IMG/VR virus record: IMGVR_UViG_3300032249_000291
Location: 1 to 26,926 of that record
Direction: 5' to 3' (one strand)
DNA from: a virus
DNA length: 26,926 bases
In this document: positions 1,916-10,092 of the stretch, one piece after another
Layout: each line of letters starts with the position of its first letter
Position numbering within the stretch: the first letter of the stretch is position 1
Position numbers and translations under genes: made by a program
The notes under the pieces: generated by a model
What the model was told of the DNA's origin: nothing
Seen by the model: the letters and a program-made list of their open reading frames with translations, nothing else
Databases searched by the model: none

Positions 1916-1933
1916 GTTATAAATCTTTATAAC
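1916..1933. repeat. Palindromic site 1 of 8 (GTTATAA-ATCT-TTATAAC)
   Basis: Perfect 7-bp arms around a 4-nt centre. It overlaps the TAA stop of the VRR-NUC gene and lies just before the SD of the HTH/arm-domain gene (start 1902). The same 7-4-7 palindrome recurs seven more times in the leftward half. Confidence 0.9.
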
Positions 1934-2228
1934 TAAACACAATCGAATCCAACACCTCGCGCAACGGCTCGATGCCATCTTCATTCACTACGAATGCTTC
2001 ACCTCCTGCTTTCTCAATCTGCTCTAAGTTCTTTTCCTGCAATGCCGTGGGCCTGTTCGACCCTGCCTTGCACTCGATACCCACGAACCTACCCTGCAAA
2101 CACACCAGAAAATCTGGCGCACCCTGCTTACCAAACCCGCTCGTCACGGGCATAACGTAGTACGCGCCTAACCCATCAAGGATTTTGCGTACCTTGGCTT
2201 TTACAGCCGCTTCCGGAGTCATTGCCAT
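1917..2228 (-). CDS. VRR-NUC domain nuclease (103 aa)
   Basis: A small PD-(D/E)xK-fold nuclease of the VRR-NUC family, which includes stand-alone phage enzymes thought to cut branched or otherwise structured DNA. Visible motifs: an N-terminal helix with Glu6, then GAPDF (Asp39), the core strand, and ECKAG (Glu52-x-Lys54), with Gln64 in the following helix (TALQEKNL). The length equals the bare catalytic domain. SD GAGGTG lies 7 nt before the ATG. It overlaps the 3' end of the upstream 92-aa gene by 53 nt. The role is probably in phage recombination, replication or host DNA degradation. Identification is firm at family level. Confidence 0.88.
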   Translation of the reverse strand: MAMTPEAAVKAKVRKILDGLGAYYVMPVTSGFGKQGAPDFLVCLQGRFVGIECKAGSNRPTALQEKNLEQIEKAGGEAFVVNEDGIEPLREVLDSIVFSYKDL

Positions 2229-2454
2229 CGTCTATCACCTCAAAAAAATTATCTTTTAACCGCTTGCCAACCCCGGGGATTGACTCCCCGTCGTTGAGCA
2301 TAGAAAGCGCCGCGATCCGCTCTTGGACGTTTTGCGACAGCTCCTCAACCGGATGATACCGGTTGATAGTTATAAATGCAAGCGTCTCATCAAACGCGTG
2401 AACCCATACTAAGCCGTCGCAAAACAGAGCAATCAATAACTTATTTTCATACAT
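2176..2454 (-). CDS. Small protein paralogous to the C-terminal domain of its neighbour (92 aa)
   Basis: Function unknown. Residues about 35-75 (HPVEELSQNV, RIAALSM, then a Gly/Ile segment) match the C-terminal part of the upstream 319-aa protein (EPVEKLDPDF, KLAALSM, ...) at similar spacing, so this looks like a free-standing copy of that domain. The upstream strand-rich N-terminus (LLIALFCDGLVWVHAF) also fits loosely. The last ~17 residues (GNDSGSGCKSQGTQNP) overlap the nuclease gene and look unstructured. The ATG overlaps the upstream gene's end by 8 nt. The gene is probably real; the role is unknown. Confidence 0.7.
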   Translation of the reverse strand: MYENKLLIALFCDGLVWVHAFDETLAFITINRYHPVEELSQNVQERIAALSMLNDGESIPGVGKRLKDNFFEVIDDGNDSGSGCKSQGTQNP

Positions 2455-3406
2455 CCCGACACTCGATCCAGAATGACTGCTCGGTCACACGGTATCCAAT
2501 GTTCTCGATGTACTTACCCACCTCGACCATAGACAGGGCGGCGAGCTTGCCCGCGAAGTCGGGATCAAGCTTCTCAACAGGCTCGGACTTGAACGTCATG
2601 TCATCACGTCTAAAGTCGTACGCGTTAGCGTGCCCGATGTCGGCTATCTGTGCACCGTTCTTGAGGATGCGGATAGACACAAACACCGCGTCACCCTTGT
2701 ACCGCTTGAGCGCGTTGTACTCGTCGAGATATTCCTGCGCGTTGTTCGCAAACTCCTGCACCTCAGCGGAGAGGAACTGCACACCCTGTTTACTCAGGTT
2801 AATAATCTCCTGCGCGAGTGTCATACCGTCGAGACGGCCAATCTTATGTAGCTTGAACTCGGCGTTACTCAGCGGACGTTTAGAGTGACTGGCAAAGTTA
2901 CCCGCCGAACGACCGGCAATGACCGTGAGGCTCCACGGGCTAACAAACTTGTTAGCGTTCTTTACTGCGCGCCTAACATCTTCAGACCAGAGCTTGCGAT
3001 ATCCAGAGTTACTGTCGCCGAACCGCTTGTTAGCGATCTTGTGCGCCTCGATACCGAACCCGTTCTCGCTGTCATACATGACCCGCGCCATGATGTACTC
3101 GCTTGAGTCGGTGTACACGAACATATCTGTAAACACGTGACCTACCAGCCGGATGCGCCCGTTCTCGTCACGCTGCCCGTCATGTGCGTACAGAGTTTCA
3201 CGTGCGTTGTCGGCACTACCGAAAAACTTAACATGTGGTGAGGACAGGCGATAGGCCGTGCAGAACACGTAGATCCGTTCGGTGACGGGGTAACCGTCTA
3301 TCCAGTAGCCATGTTCGGTTTTGCATGGGAACTTCTCATTCATGTACCTGTGCGCTTTGTGGAGCGTGACAAGTTGCGGGAATCTTGGAAAATCACTGCG
3401 AGCCAT
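2447..3406 (-). CDS. Unknown protein in the AAA+/VWA operon (319 aa)
   Basis: Not recognised. The protein appears to have an alpha/beta N-terminal region (about residues 1-130, rich in Tyr and Phe), a central Arg/Lys/Asn-rich helical region (about 135-240, including a predicted helix EVQEFANNAQEYLDEY), and a C-terminal domain (about 245-319) shared with the 92-aa protein downstream. SD GAGGTG and palindrome 2 lie immediately upstream. It follows the 336-aa unknown and shares the operon with the MoxR-like ATPase and VWA protein, so it may be an effector or substrate of that system, but this is only context. Confidence 0.75.
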   Translation of the reverse strand: MARSDFPRFPQLVTLHKAHRYMNEKFPCKTEHGYWIDGYPVTERIYVFCTAYRLSSPHVKFFGSADNARETLYAHDGQRDENGRIRLVGHVFTDMFVYTDSSEYIMARVMYDSENGFGIEAHKIANKRFGDSNSGYRKLWSEDVRRAVKNANKFVSPWSLTVIAGRSAGNFASHSKRPLSNAEFKLHKIGRLDGMTLAQEIINLSKQGVQFLSAEVQEFANNAQEYLDEYNALKRYKGDAVFVSIRILKNGAQIADIGHANAYDFRRDDMTFKSEPVEKLDPDFAGKLAALSMVEVGKYIENIGYRVTEQSFWIECRDV

Positions 3407-3439: not shown

Positions 3440-4450
3440 TTAGTACGTACGACGTGCGTACAAGTCTGCTGCCTTGTACATGGTTTTGAGATACAGAGCA
3501 CGTACGTGGCGAGCTTGCGCAACCGTTTCGGGTAGGACAAGGATCGTCTCGTACGTGATATCCAGAAGGATGTTGTCATCAGAAAAGTTGCTTGTGGCTA
3601 CGCGCCTGTAAAGGTGCAGAGCTTGGGCAAACATCACCGCGAGATCAACTCTATTTAAGTGTTGAGTGTCTAGTATAACAGATCTAACTTTCTGTGTCAA
3701 ATCATGTGAAAGGTTACTCAGATCTACGTAATGATGTGTAGGGTTAGGATATTTACCCCATAGACGTGGGACGAAGTTATTCACATGCCGATCAAACGCA
3801 CGAGGGTCCACGTCACCAAGCACGGGCAGCACCACGCACATGTAATCGTAGAACTCGTTGATCGCTTGCTTGTACTTGGCTACAAGATCTTTATCCAGCA
3901 CAGTGAGGCGCATCTCTACTGGTTTGCCCGCACGTCGCCACGCACCGCCCCGCGACGAGGAACTACTATCGGTGAGAAGCGGGCGCTCAAACCAGAGACA
4001 CGTCGGGTCAAAGTAATCGGCAGCGGCAAAGTACGCCTTGGGTCGGGGTAGGTAGAACTCTTTACCGTCAGTCTCGATAAACGTGTCACCGCCGCTCCGC
4101 TTGGTCAGCCGCATGTCGGCGGGTAGCAGGTTGATCAGGAACTTCTCACGCGCTATAGGATTAATACCTTCTGGTGCGTTACGGATACGGATAAGCTCGT
4201 GCGCCCCGTCGCGTTGCCATAGGATCGGTGCGTTACGGAACGACATTGTTTCGGGCGGGTACACGATAGCGGACGGGATCAGCCCATCCAAAAGAAGATA
4301 TCGGTTCTCATCAACCCGGGCGATCCGATCCATGTATCGGTTACGCGGACCCACGGGACGCACGTTCATACTGGCAGTGTTGCGCCCACCGTTGAGTGGT
4401 CTAGTGCGCGTGTATAGCGCGACGGCTTGGTCAAACGAATTAATAGTCAT
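3440..4450 (-). CDS. Unknown protein in the AAA+/VWA operon (336 aa)
   Basis: Not recognised. The start is set at the ATG at 4450 because a clear SD (GAGGTG, 4455-4460) lies 4 nt upstream; a longer reading would begin inside the terminator-like hairpin. The N-terminal half is strand-rich with many Arg and Pro residues; around residue 175-185 is a low-complexity serine run (TDSSSSSRGG); the C-terminal 150 residues are predominantly helical. No catalytic motif or membrane segment is visible. It directly follows the VWA gene but is separated from it by palindrome 3 and a hairpin with a T tract, so its expression may be attenuated. Partnership with the ATPase/VWA pair is inferred from position only. 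Confidence 0.75.
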   Translation of the reverse strand: MTINSFDQAVALYTRTRPLNGGRNTASMNVRPVGPRNRYMDRIARVDENRYLLLDGLIPSAIVYPPETMSFRNAPILWQRDGAHELIRIRNAPEGINPIAREKFLINLLPADMRLTKRSGGDTFIETDGKEFYLPRPKAYFAAADYFDPTCLWFERPLLTDSSSSSRGGAWRRAGKPVEMRLTVLDKDLVAKYKQAINEFYDYMCVVLPVLGDVDPRAFDRHVNNFVPRLWGKYPNPTHHYVDLSNLSHDLTQKVRSVILDTQHLNRVDLAVMFAQALHLYRRVATSNFSDDNILLDITYETILVLPETVAQARHVRALYLKTMYKAADLYARRTY

Positions 4451-4464
4451 CTCACACCTCAAAT

Positions 4465-4503
4465 AAAAAAGGGGCACGCAGGCCGCCGGATATCCGGCGT
4501 GCC
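4465..4503 (-). terminator. Rho-independent terminator or attenuator between VWA gene and 336-aa gene
   Basis: Read leftwards: stem GGCACGC (4503-4497) / GCGTGCC (4479-4473) with an inner 14-bp palindrome GCCGGATATCCGGC (4485-4498), then CC and six Ts (4470-4465). The SD of the next gene starts only 4 nt after the T tract, so there is no room for a new promoter between them. Confidence 0.7.
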
Positions 4504-4530: not shown

Positions 4531-5781
4531 TCAGATCTCCACGTGCACAGTGGTCCCGTTCGGCGCAGTGCGTGACGCGTTGTCGATGATGCACCAGAGA
4601 ACCGGCACGGTCCACGTACCCCAGTCGCTGCCGAGGTAGCCGTCAGTCAGCACGATAACGGCTTGTGGTGTGATGCCCTGCGCGGTCATATAGTTGGACA
4701 CGCACGACACCCGTGTGCCACCGCCACCGACCGGCTTGGTCGAGTGAATGATGTTCGGGATCTGGTCGTCGGCGTACACCTCGTCACCGCATACCTCAGT
4801 ATCCCAGTACAGGATACGTACAGCGGCGGGCTTGACCGACTCGCAGATGCCCGCGACCTCACCCATGATCTGCGGCAACATCGATATCGTCGAACCGGAC
4901 ATATCGGCGGCAATAACTAACTCGTCGACCTTCTCGCTGATGCCAGACGGCAGGTATATACCTGCACCCCAATACCTGCGGTTTGGTCGTGCCCACGTCG
5001 AGTAGTCACTGCCCGTGCATGTTGTGGTAATAAACTCACGCAACACCTCGCGCCAGTCGATCTTGCTATCTAACACGTCGTCGAGCATACGGTTACCGCC
5101 CGTGCCGGTCTTACCTGCAAGTAGCGCACCTTGTTGCGCGGCTTCCTGCACAGCACGCTCTAAGTTCTTTTTCTGCTCGTCGGTCAGCTTACCCGCACCT
5201 GCCCAATCGTGTTTGTCCAACGGCTTGCCCGGACCCTGCCCGGGTTGTGGTTGACCTTGACCCTGACCCCCGGGTTGCGGATTACCCTGACCTTGCCCCT
5301 GACCCTGCTTCTGCTTGTAAAGAGCTTTGAATACCTGCGGCACGGTCTTGTTGCGGTACTGCTCGTCGTACAGACCACCCTTTGGCATGGTGATGAACCC
5401 GGGCTGAGTTCGCTTGTCATGGTCGAGTAGCCGCATGTTGATAACGTAATCACACGCGGCGTTGGCACACTCGGCGTCGAGCTTCCACAGATCGGCGTAA
5501 GTAGTCAGGTGCAGATACAGGATGTGCCACGTCTCATGGCAGATGAGGAACCGCAGGTCGGAATCACTGATGCTGTCGATAAACTTGTCACTGTACCTAG
5601 CCGTGACGCCGTTAGTCTCGGCTGTATCGATGCCGTCGGTCCCGTTCGGCACGACAGTGTGTTTAGCCATGAGCACCAGACCGGTGATCGGCGTGTAGTG
5701 CGGAGACCCAATGATTGCACCGACAGCTTTTGTAAGACGCTGAGCGGCGGTGAGTTCGGCTTGTCTTGCGATCATCAACAT
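4531..5781 (-). CDS. VWA-domain protein with HExxH metallopeptidase-like N-terminus, CobT/DUF2201-like (416 aa)
   Basis: The N-terminal domain (about 1-150) carries HETWH at residues 82-86, the zinc-metallopeptidase signature seen in the DUF2201 'putative metallopeptidase' family. A Gln/Gly/Pro-rich linker (about 157-185) follows, then a C-terminal von Willebrand A domain with MIDAS motif DMSGS (293-297), a GGGGTR loop and VLTDGY. This matches the substrate-handling partner of MoxR-type AAA+ ATPases (CobT-CobS, ViaA-RavA types). The gene lies immediately downstream of such an ATPase. The start is the ATG at 5781, 5 nt after SD GAGGTG; a TTG four codons earlier lies inside the SD. Cytoplasmic; a role in ATP-driven remodelling of another complex is inferred from the families. 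Confidence 0.88.
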   Translation of the reverse strand: MLMIARQAELTAAQRLTKAVGAIIGSPHYTPITGLVLMAKHTVVPNGTDGIDTAETNGVTARYSDKFIDSISDSDLRFLICHETWHILYLHLTTYADLWKLDAECANAACDYVINMRLLDHDKRTQPGFITMPKGGLYDEQYRNKTVPQVFKALYKQKQGQGQGQGNPQPGGQGQGQPQPGQGPGKPLDKHDWAGAGKLTDEQKKNLERAVQEAAQQGALLAGKTGTGGNRMLDDVLDSKIDWREVLREFITTTCTGSDYSTWARPNRRYWGAGIYLPSGISEKVDELVIAADMSGSTISMLPQIMGEVAGICESVKPAAVRILYWDTEVCGDEVYADDQIPNIIHSTKPVGGGGTRVSCVSNYMTAQGITPQAVIVLTDGYLGSDWGTWTVPVLWCIIDNASRTAPNGTTVHVEI

Positions 5782-5801
5782 AGAACACCTCAAAAGATAG
5801 A

Positions 5802-5827
5802 GCCGGTTATAAAGCGTTATAACCGGC
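5802..5827. repeat. Palindromic site 4 of 8 with extended arms (core 5806-5823)
   Basis: The core GTTATAA-AGCG-TTATAAC is extended to 11-bp arms (GCCGGTTATAA / TTATAACCGGC). It lies between the ATPase stop (5838) and the VWA start (5781), upstream of the SD. Confidence 0.9.
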
Positions 5828-5837
5828 GGATAAAAAA

Positions 5838-6944
5838 TTACTTGTCTGCGCCGAATGCGAAGTTATTGGCAAGACACCACGCACGGGCTTTAGCGTTGTT
5901 CAACACCACCGTGCGCTTGCTGTAGTCCTCGCGCTTGACCTGCATCATAAATAGAAGCTGAGCTTCCATGTCGAGCCGACCCATGTAGTCCATCCACTGA
6001 TCGACCCACTCGCGTGAGATCGTAGCCAGTGTGCGATGCACGACCATGCACGTAGCCGCGTCGGTAGACGGAATCTTGGCAGTGAACGGGTCGACCTTGA
6101 TTGAATCGGGCGTGGGCATATCCTGCGCGGTGTCATAGAAGGTAACAAGTTCACCAGCAGCTTTCGGTCCGATACACCCGATGAGTGCAGCCATCAGCAT
6201 GCGGCGGGGCTTGCCCGTGTACAGCCAGCGCGACGCAGCTTCAAGTGAGCGCGGAGTAACAAACGATACGCGCGAGCGGTCGCCCGGGTGCATGATGTAC
6301 TGATTGTCGGCAGGGTTCTGCACGTCCTCAAAGGACTGGAACCATTCCGGTTTGTCGTTGACGCACGCAATCATGGCAGGGTGAATACCCGCGTTGTACG
6401 CGTACTCGGCGATCCACTCCGTGTTAGTAGGTTTACGCATGCGCATGACCGTGATGCGGTTGCGATGGTGCGGCATCAGCAGGTCGCCAACACCCTCAGC
6501 CCCGAGGTTAGTCGTCGCAAACAACATCGAGTCGAGCGTCATCTCGTAACGCACACCGAGCTTGCGCTCCAGCATGAGCCGCATCATCCCGTTCTTGACA
6601 GCGGCATTCGCTTTGCCAAACTCATCGATCATCAGAATCAACGGCTTGGACAGGTGCAGCCCCAATTCTTCGTTAGGCACGTGACGCACGCACGTAGTCC
6701 CGTCGTCGTTGAACTCCACGGTATGAAGTTTAGGTATGGTGATATCGCCCACGTCCTTAGTCGTGCAGTCGAAGTAGCACGCGGTATGCGTCGGGTAACG
6801 CTTGGCAAGCAGTTTGAGAATTGAACTCTTGCCGATACCCATGTGACCTTGCACCAGCACGGTGTTGTCACGGCAGGACTCGATCATCTCGGCCATCTCG
6901 GTGATGGACAGGTCGTAGAGAGAGTTAGTAGCGGAAGCAGACAT
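5838..6944 (-). CDS. MoxR/CobS-type AAA+ ATPase (368 aa)
   Basis: Walker A GHMGIGKSS (33-41), Walker B LILMIDEFG (102-110), sensor-1-like LFATTN, and an arginine-finger region MPHHRNRITVMRM place this in the MoxR/CobS branch of AAA+ ATPases. Such ATPases form hexameric rings that remodel or load cofactors into partner complexes together with a VWA protein, which here is the next gene. The C-terminal third is helical (lid). The start at 6944 follows SD GAGGTG with the same leader as the VWA gene (TTTTGAGGTGTTC). Upstream is a perfect 9-bp hairpin at the place where other genes have the palindrome. Family assignment is firm; the phage role is unknown. Confidence 0.92.
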   Translation of the reverse strand: MSASATNSLYDLSITEMAEMIESCRDNTVLVQGHMGIGKSSILKLLAKRYPTHTACYFDCTTKDVGDITIPKLHTVEFNDDGTTCVRHVPNEELGLHLSKPLILMIDEFGKANAAVKNGMMRLMLERKLGVRYEMTLDSMLFATTNLGAEGVGDLLMPHHRNRITVMRMRKPTNTEWIAEYAYNAGIHPAMIACVNDKPEWFQSFEDVQNPADNQYIMHPGDRSRVSFVTPRSLEAASRWLYTGKPRRMLMAALIGCIGPKAAGELVTFYDTAQDMPTPDSIKVDPFTAKIPSTDAATCMVVHRTLATISREWVDQWMDYMGRLDMEAQLLFMMQVKREDYSKRTVVLNNAKARAWCLANNFAFGADK

Positions 6945-6995
6945 GGAACACCTCAAAAGATAAAAAGAAACAAGGAAACAAATACAAAGAACAAG

Positions 6996-7018
6996 GGTGA
7001 TAAGTTTTACTTATCACC
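6996..7018. repeat. Perfect hairpin GGTGATAAG / CTTATCACC
   Basis: 9-bp arms with a 5-nt loop between the DUF3150-like gene (stop 7038) and the ATPase (start 6944). No U tract follows, so it is not a standard terminator. It occupies the intergenic position that elsewhere in the operon carries the GTTATAA palindrome. Confidence 0.7.
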
Positions 7019-7037
7019 GTGAAACAAAAGACAAAGA

Positions 7038-7949
7038 TTACCAAGACAGGTTAGACAGTATCGCGTCGACCTTAGCCTTAGTGTCACGGCGCAGGTGGTC
7101 ATCCTCACGCAGTGCATCGGGGGACACGCCGTCAAGCGCAGCTTCCAGACCATCACGCATGGCCGTCATACGGTGGTCGTTCTCGACATTGAACGCATCG
7201 AGCAGAGTCAGGAGATCACGCAGGTTGTAGACGAGAGAGTCACGGAATACTTTCTTATCCTTAGCGTCACCACCCACGTAGTCGAGCCGCTCGCTCATCT
7301 TGGACATGGCGTCGTACGTGCGCTGCCAGACCTCACGCATGGTTGCATCGAGACGTGAGTTGTACGTGTTTGCGAAGCTCTCGGCAAGAATCCTATTGTG
7401 CTCGTTGACCATATCAAGTTGCCAGTGCCCTGCAACGGGCATCGGCTGCTGCGCGTGGGCGAATGAGAACTTACTGCGCAAGGTATCGACCGACGGATAG
7501 TCGGAGTCACGATATAGCGTGCCGAGCTTGGCACGGGCTTCAGTCTGCGCCCACGAGTATGCAGACAGGAATGCTTCTTTGAGTGTGTCGAACTCGATAT
7601 GGTGACCGGTGATGCCCTCGTAATACATGGGGAAGCGGGACGTCGGCAGCGTGCGCTGACCGAGATCACCCCAAAGGCTTGTCTGCTCGTAGTGCCAGTT
7701 ACGCACGTTGGCAGCGTGCTTCTGAATTGCGATGAGTTCGGCACAGTCACCGAGCAGCTTCTTATGGAATGCACCGGCGTTGGCATCGGCGTTATTTGCA
7801 ACGGTCACCTCACGGGTGGCTTGCTTGTCGAGCTTGCGCCCGGTCCACACCGAGATGTTGAGTTCGGCAATCACGAGGGACTGGTGAAATACGTTGTTCG
7901 ATGCTTGCTGCGCAGGGGTGAGTGATGCAGCGATAGGGGCAAGAGTCAT
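7038..7949 (-). CDS. DUF3150-like protein, partner of the AAA+/VWA pair (303 aa)
   Basis: The N-terminal segment LNISVWTGRKLDKQAT, followed by a helical region (AGAFHKKLLGDCAELIAIQKHAANVRNWHYEQTS) and LWGDLGQRTLPTSRFPMY, resembles what I remember of the DUF3150 family, found beside CobS/CobT-like ATPase and VWA genes in phages and plasmids. The rest is mostly helical, with long coiled-coil-like stretches from about 190 on (DAMSKMSERLDY, LRDLLTLLDAFNVEND). No catalytic motif is seen, which suggests an adaptor or structural partner. SD (TGAGG) lies just before the ATG, and palindrome 5 is upstream. It is the first large gene of the operon, before the ATPase and VWA genes. The family call is from memory. 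Confidence 0.7.
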   Translation of the reverse strand: MTLAPIAASLTPAQQASNNVFHQSLVIAELNISVWTGRKLDKQATREVTVANNADANAGAFHKKLLGDCAELIAIQKHAANVRNWHYEQTSLWGDLGQRTLPTSRFPMYYEGITGHHIEFDTLKEAFLSAYSWAQTEARAKLGTLYRDSDYPSVDTLRSKFSFAHAQQPMPVAGHWQLDMVNEHNRILAESFANTYNSRLDATMREVWQRTYDAMSKMSERLDYVGGDAKDKKVFRDSLVYNLRDLLTLLDAFNVENDHRMTAMRDGLEAALDGVSPDALREDDHLRRDTKAKVDAILSNLSW

Positions 7950-7984: not shown

Positions 7985-8002
7985 GTTATAAGGCTTTATA
8001 AC
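7985..8002. repeat. Palindromic site 5 of 8 (GTTATAA-GGCT-TTATAAC)
   Basis: A 7-4-7 palindrome that touches the stop codon of the 71-aa gene (8002) and lies upstream of the DUF3150-like gene (start 7949). Confidence 0.9.
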
Positions 8003-9379: not shown

Positions 9380-9985
9380 TTAAACAGGGAGACGACCAAG
9401 TATTGCTTTTAGGTCGTTCGTCATGACAACCAAGTCGACTGGCTTACCGGCGGCGTCATGCAAACCCTCAAGCTTGCCAGCGTATTTGACCGCACTCTCA
9501 ATGGCCTTGCGAAGCTTGTCGACTGGTGACTTGGCTTCGGTTTCGGTTTCATCCTCACCGTTGGCTTCAGCTTCCAGTTCTGCTAAGTACTTTTCGATCA
9601 ACGCAAACTTCGCGCCGAACCCTTGCCGGATGACCTTGTTGCGATCTTTAGCGGCGTCGTCCAGTGTCTTAGGGTCGGCCAACAAGTTGGCGCGTTCCTT
9701 TGCGACCGGCCAACTAGCAATCATCCCATCGCGCAAGGTTTGCCGGTTCTGTTTTCCGACAAGGGTTTTCCCGTCCAGCGACGCGACGCGCCATTCGGCG
9801 TCGTACAGAACCTCAGACAAGGAAACCCATTTACCCTTAGCACCCTCAACAGCCTTGTCAGCGTCGTTGCTTTTCTTCAGCGCATCTGCGCAGATTGCGT
9901 TGAACCCGGACGGCAATGCCAACGCGCCAACAGCCGTGTGATTGGTCGCGATCTGGGTTTGCACCATTGCTTCGATAGCATTCAT
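9380..9985 (-). CDS. Unknown protein, first gene of a short leftward transcript (201 aa)
   Basis: Not recognised. Helix-rich and charged, with an acidic low-complexity stretch in the middle (EAEANGEDETETEAKS) separating an N-terminal domain of about 145 residues from a C-terminal helical segment of about 50. The start is ATG at 9985, set by SD GAGGTG 6 nt upstream. A longer frame upstream would cover the promoter and lacks an SD. It is transcribed from the TTGACA/TATTAT promoter at 10,042-10,069, with palindrome 8 upstream of that. The position, next to the divergent control region with a strong promoter, suggests an early protein; that is inference. Confidence 0.75.
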   Translation of the reverse strand: MNAIEAMVQTQIATNHTAVGALALPSGFNAICADALKKSNDADKAVEGAKGKWVSLSEVLYDAEWRVASLDGKTLVGKQNRQTLRDGMIASWPVAKERANLLADPKTLDDAAKDRNKVIRQGFGAKFALIEKYLAELEAEANGEDETETEAKSPVDKLRKAIESAVKYAGKLEGLHDAAGKPVDLVVMTNDLKAILGRLPV

Positions 9986-10041
9986 CTCATTCACCTCACG
10001 TCGGGCCGGTATCGACTGACACCTACAAACCCGACACCTCA

Positions 10042-10069
10042 ATAATACCTGAATGGTAAATCGTGTCAA
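10042..10069 (-). promoter_or_regulatory. Strong sigma70-type promoter for the 201-aa gene
   Basis: Read leftwards: -35 TTGACA (10069-10064), 16-nt spacer, -10 TATTAT (10047-10042, 5 of 6). The predicted start is near 10,035, giving a leader of about 50 nt before the ATG at 9985. Palindrome 8 lies about 24 bases upstream of the -35. Confidence 0.75.
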
Positions 10070-10092
10070 GTAATGTGAAAACAAAGCAACGG

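Follow-up and report, generated by a model that had tools for sequence, protein, structure and literature searches.

What would a phage do with an AAA+ ATPase, a partner that carries both a von Willebrand factor A (VWA) domain and a metallopeptidase signature, and a third protein encoded alongside them? The question is raised by three open reading frames (ORFs), arranged head to tail from 7949 to 4531 on the minus strand of the IMG/VR virus record IMGVR_UViG_3300032249_000291. (We refer to the whole 26.9-kb stretch that was analysed, 26,926 nucleotides, as the window.) The ATPase/VWA pair is already known from phages; the new part is its third partner, here called D3, whose family belongs, by profile comparisons, to DUF3150. 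We put about even confidence in the reading that the trio is one ATP-driven remodelling or protease machine with a DUF3150 adaptor, which would work inside the infected cell and would not be a dedicated virion-assembly factor.

Three conserved genes in one operon

A preliminary description of this locus, made from the sequence alone, had proposed that the three genes form an operon that encodes a MoxR-type ATPase, a VWA protein with an HExxH signature, and a co-evolving, DUF3150-like protein. The operon is as described. The longest ORFs run from 7949 to 7038 (D3, 303 amino acids), from 6956 to 5838 (the ATPase), and from 5793 to 4531 (the VWA protein). Because GAGG ribosome-binding sites precede the ATG codons at 6944 and 5781, we take these as the probable true starts of the second and third genes, which gives an ATPase of 368 amino acids (5838..6944) and a VWA protein of 416 amino acids (4531..5781).

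The VWA protein consists of an N-terminal zincin-like domain with the HExxH motif, a linker rich in glutamine, glycine, and proline, and a C-terminal VWA domain with a metal ion-dependent adhesion site (MIDAS). With the two DUF2201 models of Pfam (PF13203 and PF09967), which the preliminary description had suggested trying, it scores above both cut-offs: 8.7e-31 for DUF2201_N, the metallopeptidase (108 bits, cut-off 23.2), and 4.9e-12 for DUF2201, the VWA domain (46.5 bits, cut-off 26.4). It also matches PHROG 1314 (1.3e-84). An AlphaFold2 model of the protein (predicted local distance difference test, or pLDDT, of 82.6) has the expected VWA fold at residues 286-420, with Z = 12.2 and a root-mean-square deviation of 2.6 over 135 residues relative to 6snk_B. 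The motifs that had been noted as intact are indeed present, and 95 phage homologues show no variation at the HETWH residues H86, E87, and H90, at H95 or D115, or at the MIDAS residues (D297, S299, and S301 of DMSGS, T360, and D384). The five zincin residues are mostly retained in 63 cellular members as well.

The ATPase matches PHROG 1297 (3.9e-39). Its Walker A (G37, G40, and K43) and Walker B (D111/E112) residues, the N150 sensor, R167, and R236 are invariant in 108 phage homologues. Judged from family models, the label "MoxR-like" is correct only in the broad AAA_5 sense of the literature. Among 29 relatives, 24 match AAA_5 at E ≤ 0.01, while just 6 match AAA_3 (the MoxR model in the strict sense) and 4 match bpMoxR. 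The window ATPase itself scores 21.6 bits against AAA_5, where the Pfam cut-off is 22.0, and its best solved relative in a profile search of the PDB is midasin (7e-30). By the profiles of its family, we describe it as a member of the AAA_5/MoxR-like clade that includes midasin- and CobS-like proteins.

Two side observations concern these families. At the catalytic Walker B position, 56 of 61 ATPases from plasmid or cellular trios (loci L115-L182) have aspartate, and all 108 phage ATPases have glutamate. Separately, the zincin-VWA family (PHROG 1314) is named "HNH endonuclease" in PHROGs and in many RefSeq phage records. The window protein has no HNH match in Pfam, and the name looks like a propagating misannotation.

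A DUF3150 protein is the third component

The assignment of D3 holds for the family and not for the window protein taken alone. D3 of the window (7038..7949, minus strand) has no match to any Pfam family at E ≤ 1, so it lies below the gathering cut-off for DUF3150 (PF11348). Across the D3 family, 27 of 41 members match DUF3150 at E ≤ 1, and two of the eight phage members that we checked in detail exceed its cut-off of 24.9 bits (L043 with 28.4 bits and L089 with 25.2 bits). Furthermore, when the profile of the phage D3 proteins was aligned to a bona fide DUF3150 protein, hhalign gave a probability of 99.8% (E = 7e-28, 267 columns). Of the two outcomes that the preliminary description had named as refuting it, a failure to place this protein in DUF3150 and the lack of a VWA fold in the 416-residue protein, neither came about. 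The likeness to the branch of DUF3150 from IncC-type elements is remote (hhalign 47%, E = 1.9e-4). In a structural model of D3 (mean pLDDT of 85), the N-terminus forms a small alpha/beta part, two helices are about 43 residues long, and the C-terminus is also helical. Foldseek found nothing similar to this model at E ≤ 0.001 (the best hit was at 0.35), and the best VIA-align result, a designed helical bundle with Z = 10.2, is at the noise level for helical proteins.

Are the three genes maintained together? We gathered loci from IMG/VR, seeding the search with each of the three proteins separately. The order D3-ATPase-VWA was found in 94 loci, and another order or a split ORF in 4; in 4 further loci, D3-ATPase runs into the end of the contig. 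Most of the remaining loci begin or stop at contig edges, and D3 is missing from the N4-like loci, the rV5-like loci, and the distant L113. The phage group to which the window belongs is a freshwater and marine one. Several of the loci share contigs, and removing near-duplicates left 49, for which we compared distance matrices. The correlations were 0.84 for ATPase and VWA, 0.78 for D3 and VWA, and 0.73 for D3 and ATPase. After the large terminase subunit (TerL) was removed (28 loci), they were 0.78, 0.71, and 0.59. The distances for n345, the next gene of the operon, track the trio nearly as well (0.77-0.80), and those for two other conserved neighbours, n103 and n234, less so. The trio genes co-evolve in divergent phages, as had been proposed for the third partner, and n345 co-evolves with them. 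Relative to close relatives, the ratio of nonsynonymous to synonymous substitution rates (dN/dS) is 0.07-0.13, so the trio genes are under purifying selection.

The trio is also found on plasmids

All three families are also contiguous outside of phages, on plasmids of Burkholderia, Cupriavidus, Paraburkholderia, Variovorax, Simplicispira, and Rhodovastum, and on contigs from Dechloromonas, Rhodocyclus, and metagenome-assembled genomes of Bryobacterales and of an actinobacterium. In a set of 67 bacterial, plasmid, and cyanophage loci (Synechococcus phage MinM2 is included, and most of the loci were recovered via D3), the three genes are together in about 63. Their order there is ATPase-D3-VWA, in contrast to D3-ATPase-VWA in the phages, and on the plasmids they are not accompanied by virion genes. 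Genes of type IV secretion systems are near about 40 of the trio loci, conjugative plasmids among them.

The branch of DUF3150 that Pfam defines is rare: in one phylum, 8 of 398 genomes have a member above the cut-off. Among the DUF3150 loci that we inspected (seven genomes and an IncC plasmid), all eight have a gene for a CobT-like VWA protein within about 18 kb, and seven of the eight have a gene for a CobS-like ATPase. Examples from this branch adjoin RecT/YqaJ genes or ssb/bet/exo genes. A DUF3150 homologue is present in 1168 plasmid records, mostly conjugative. The IncC-type elements thus resemble the phages in bringing together an AAA_5 ATPase, DUF3150, and a VWA protein on a mobile element, but their VWA protein is CobT-like and lacks the DUF2201 zincin, and the ssb/bet/exo genes adjoin the three genes or lie between them. 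Because DUF3150, an AAA_5 ATPase, and a VWA protein are found together in both phages and plasmids, this is a recurrent association on mobile elements, in two versions. Our literature searches for DUF3150 gave no paper (papers under subscription were not searchable), and in the searchable literature DUF3150 appears to be undescribed as the third, constant partner in AAA+/VWA systems of mobile elements.

On a plasmid of Candidatus Manganitrophus (L119), DUF3150 comes after an AAA ATPase, DUF1257, and DUF2997, and there is no VWA partner in this set. The arrangement may be a third version.

We also considered a link to ubiquitin-like proteins. The MIDAS domain of midasin binds ubiquitin-like domains, which prompted the idea, as did E1/JAB-type genes of the PRTRC system in the vicinity of Burkholderiaceae trios. 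We dropped it: the PRTRC genes are present in only part of the Burkholderiaceae loci and in none of the annotated phage loci, so their proximity is explained by a shared plasmid backbone.

Comparison with known AAA+/VWA systems

The preliminary description took no phage role to be established. Iyer et al. (2021, PMC7824862) had already reported the ATPase/zincin-VWA pair in jumbo phages and, by analogy with Acidianus two-tailed virus (ATV), predicted that it acts in virion assembly with proteolytic processing. Their MoxR and metallopeptidase-vWA pair, from jumbo phages of group 2.2, is homologous to the ATPase and the VWA protein of the window (PHROG 1297 and PHROG 1314). In the jumbo phage PA5oct, our family profile matches the ATPase at 4.3e-71, and the VWA protein is matched at 3e-19. 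The jumbo-phage pair differs from the trio in that its genes are often several kilobases apart and that D3 is not detectable in PA5oct.

The ternary MoxR-vWA systems of Kaur et al. (2020, PMC7159879) likewise combine a MoxR-type ATPase, a vWA protein, and a third component. In those systems the third component is VMAP, iSTAND, or FtsH, and the vWA protein has variable C-terminal effectors, whereas the phage trio has DUF3150 and a fixed N-terminal zincin. Family searches found no effector domain on the window VWA protein and no relationship of D3 to VMAP, iSTAND, or FtsH. Also, the systems of Kaur et al. are mainly in multicellular bacteria, and the DUF3150 trio is on phages and plasmids. NorQ-NorD, CbbQ-CbbO, RavA-ViaA, and midasin share the arrangement of an AAA+ ring with a VWA/MIDAS partner (PMC9976466, PMC13036017), but they have neither a DUF3150 component nor a zincin, and their substrates are cellular enzymes or pre-ribosomes.

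What does the trio do?

We favour the one-machine reading because conserved families are encoded in one operon, the ATPase, MIDAS, and HExxH residues are intact, the genes co-evolve, and they are contiguous in both phages and plasmids. In NorQ/NorD, a finger of the VWA protein enters the pore of the ring, the MIDAS binds the target, and the hydrolysis of ATP twists a linker (PMC9976466, PMC13036017). By analogy, the phage ATPase would assemble into a hexameric ring on which its partner would dock through the VWA domain, and the MIDAS metal would grip an acidic patch of the target. ATP-driven motion might then strain the flexible linker, so that the target would be remodelled or offered to the tethered zincin for cleavage. 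The mostly helical DUF3150 protein would most likely be an adaptor or scaffold that selects or places the target. The machine probably belongs to an early or middle block of DNA-metabolism genes and would act on a nucleoprotein or host complex.

Several points weigh against this reading. We infer ring formation, docking, proteolysis, the time of expression, and the target, and the early or middle timing comes from gene order. The HExxH residues are apparently missing in a few cellular members, and the zincin domain may bind metal or the target without cleaving it. By profile search, D3 is absent from PA5oct, from one rV5-like phage, and from two N4-like phages. Because these phages retain the ATPase/VWA pair without a detectable D3, D3 is not universally required. 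In ATV, a MoxR-vWA pair is used in tail development (cited in PMC7824862). Finally, the ATPase of PA5oct is annotated "ESI-MS/MS" (electrospray ionization tandem mass spectrometry), as are structural proteins encoded nearby, so it may accompany virions.

The last two points, along with the published prediction for jumbo phages, favour an alternative in which the pair assembles structural proteins, the zincin processes them (Iyer et al. 2021), and D3 is an assembly adaptor. This phage group also has other assembly helpers, such as GroES. Three results make a virion-only role disfavoured, and with it the virion maturation that the preliminary description had offered as one possibility. First, the trio is on plasmids, which build no virions. 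Second, the window's TerL (47%), portal (38%), and major capsid protein (62-63%) have homologues in Pelagibacter phage HTVC023P and in phage DSL-LC04, yet nowhere in these two genomes is there a match to the ATPase or D3 profiles. (Contig G012 has the trio and a capsid that is nearer to that of DSL-LC04.) Third, the trio is on the strand opposite to the virion genes in the window, in four long contigs, and in MinM2, and DNA-metabolism genes are nearby; in phages of the window's type, a nuclease gene follows the trio. In the window, the plus strand encodes the terminase (PHROG 38), the portal (PHROG 1216), GroES, and the major head protein. We consider virion assembly unlikely as the role of the trio. 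A tail-specific role may apply, the tail modules having been compared in part only.

We give the same weight to a second alternative, that the trio is a host-takeover or anti-defence protease which removes a host protein or a defence complex on entry. Such an activity would be useful to phages and plasmids alike. The presence of the trio on phages and on conjugative plasmids beside transfer or recombination genes, the rare and accessory distribution of DUF3150, and the invariance of the protease-like domain in phages are all consistent with it. Against it, no direct evidence points to a target, and the neighbouring replication and recombination genes would suit a role in DNA metabolism equally well. 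In addition, dN/dS of about 0.1 indicates conserved genes, unlike the fast divergence that is typical of arms races. Host takeover, which the preliminary description had also raised, or DNA metabolism may be the role of the trio.

Metal insertion as by CobS-CobT or NorQ-NorD, into a metalloenzyme of the phage or the host, fits the homology at the level of fold class and the sister version with CobS/CobT-like proteins beside DUF3150. We think that it is very unlikely. The window VWA protein, unlike its IncC-type counterpart, has no CobT or CobT_C match in Pfam, its zincin domain is foreign to CobS-CobT and NorQ-NorD, and no metalloenzyme or chelatase large subunit is annotated adjoining the phage or plasmid trios.

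We give hardly any credence to the last alternative, that the trio defends the host cell when other phages attack, which the preliminary description had mentioned as well: the three-component MoxR-vWA logic is shared with the ternary conflict systems (PMC7159879), but the VWA protein lacks variable effectors, the third component is unrelated as far as family searches show, the architecture is conserved, and the PADLOC matches are at chance level, with none better than E ~ 0.03 and no other direct support.

A broader proposal is tentative, and we hold it with less confidence than the one-machine reading. DUF3150 might mark an unrecognised class of ternary AAA+/VWA machines on phages and conjugative plasmids. 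The class would have at least two versions (with a zincin-VWA or a CobT-like VWA protein), and its machines would remodel or cleave nucleoprotein complexes while the DNA of mobile elements is being established, replicated, or recombined. AAA+/VWA pairs are widespread, their targets are mostly unknown, and the phage version has so far been backed by prediction only. With DUF3150 as a constant partner in unrelated phages and on conjugative plasmids, a domain of unknown function becomes a testable component, and the IncC elements that encode it can be handled in E. coli. The finding also draws attention away from virion assembly and towards processes common to phages and plasmids.

Neighbouring genes and a repeated palindrome

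The trio is part of a longer conserved block, all on the minus strand, with the order n234 ... D3-ATPase-VWA-n345-n319-n92-n103. Upstream of the trio, n234 (9380..10084) is conserved in 70 loci. Downstream, n345 (3440..4477) is present in 75 trio loci and is followed by n319 (2447..3406), which is also conserved. Neither n345 nor n319 could be placed in a known family: they have no convincing match in Pfam or the PDB, and the two genes downstream of the MinM2 VWA gene are not their homologues. The small protein n92 (2176..2454) consists mostly of a C-terminal domain of about 43 residues that it has in common with n319 (hhalign E = 5.5e-13). The last gene of the block, n103 (1917..2228), is conserved in 77 trio loci and encodes a PD-(D/E)XK nuclease of the VRR-NUC/RecU/Hjc type. 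Its match to Hjc (0.0061) is below the cut-off, and it matches the nuclease 4qbo at 6.7e-4.

The same region contains an 18-bp palindrome, GTTATAANGCNTTATAAC, in eight copies (two with one mismatch), where 0.00 would be expected. The copies start at 1916, 3418, 4513, 5806, 7985, 8264, 8967, and 10093. They are confined to 1.9-10.1 kb and to the junctions between genes of the minus-strand block, often just before a ribosome-binding site. For example, the copy at 7985..8002 is upstream of D3, and the copy at 5806..5823 is between the ATPase and VWA genes. Repeated palindromes, with sequences specific to the lineage, are present in 75 of the 110 loci that carry the VWA gene, as compared to none of 110 controls generated by a Markov model; the palindromes of MinM2 have GGTTCAG arms. 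Is the palindrome a family of operators, an attenuator, or an RNA-processing hairpin?

Some of the database records that we used carry doubtful host names. Synechococcus phage MinM2 (OQ594354), Planktothrix phage Pag-Yong1 (OL906435), and Planktothricoides phage Pra-JY27 (PP438419) are each 65,014 bp and have identical match scores, and they are probably one phage under three host names. Several records of "Campylobacter" phages of 135-143 kb (MG065690, MG065644, and others) match the ATPase about as well as the Vequintavirus (rV5-like) coliphages do, and their host labels may be wrong.

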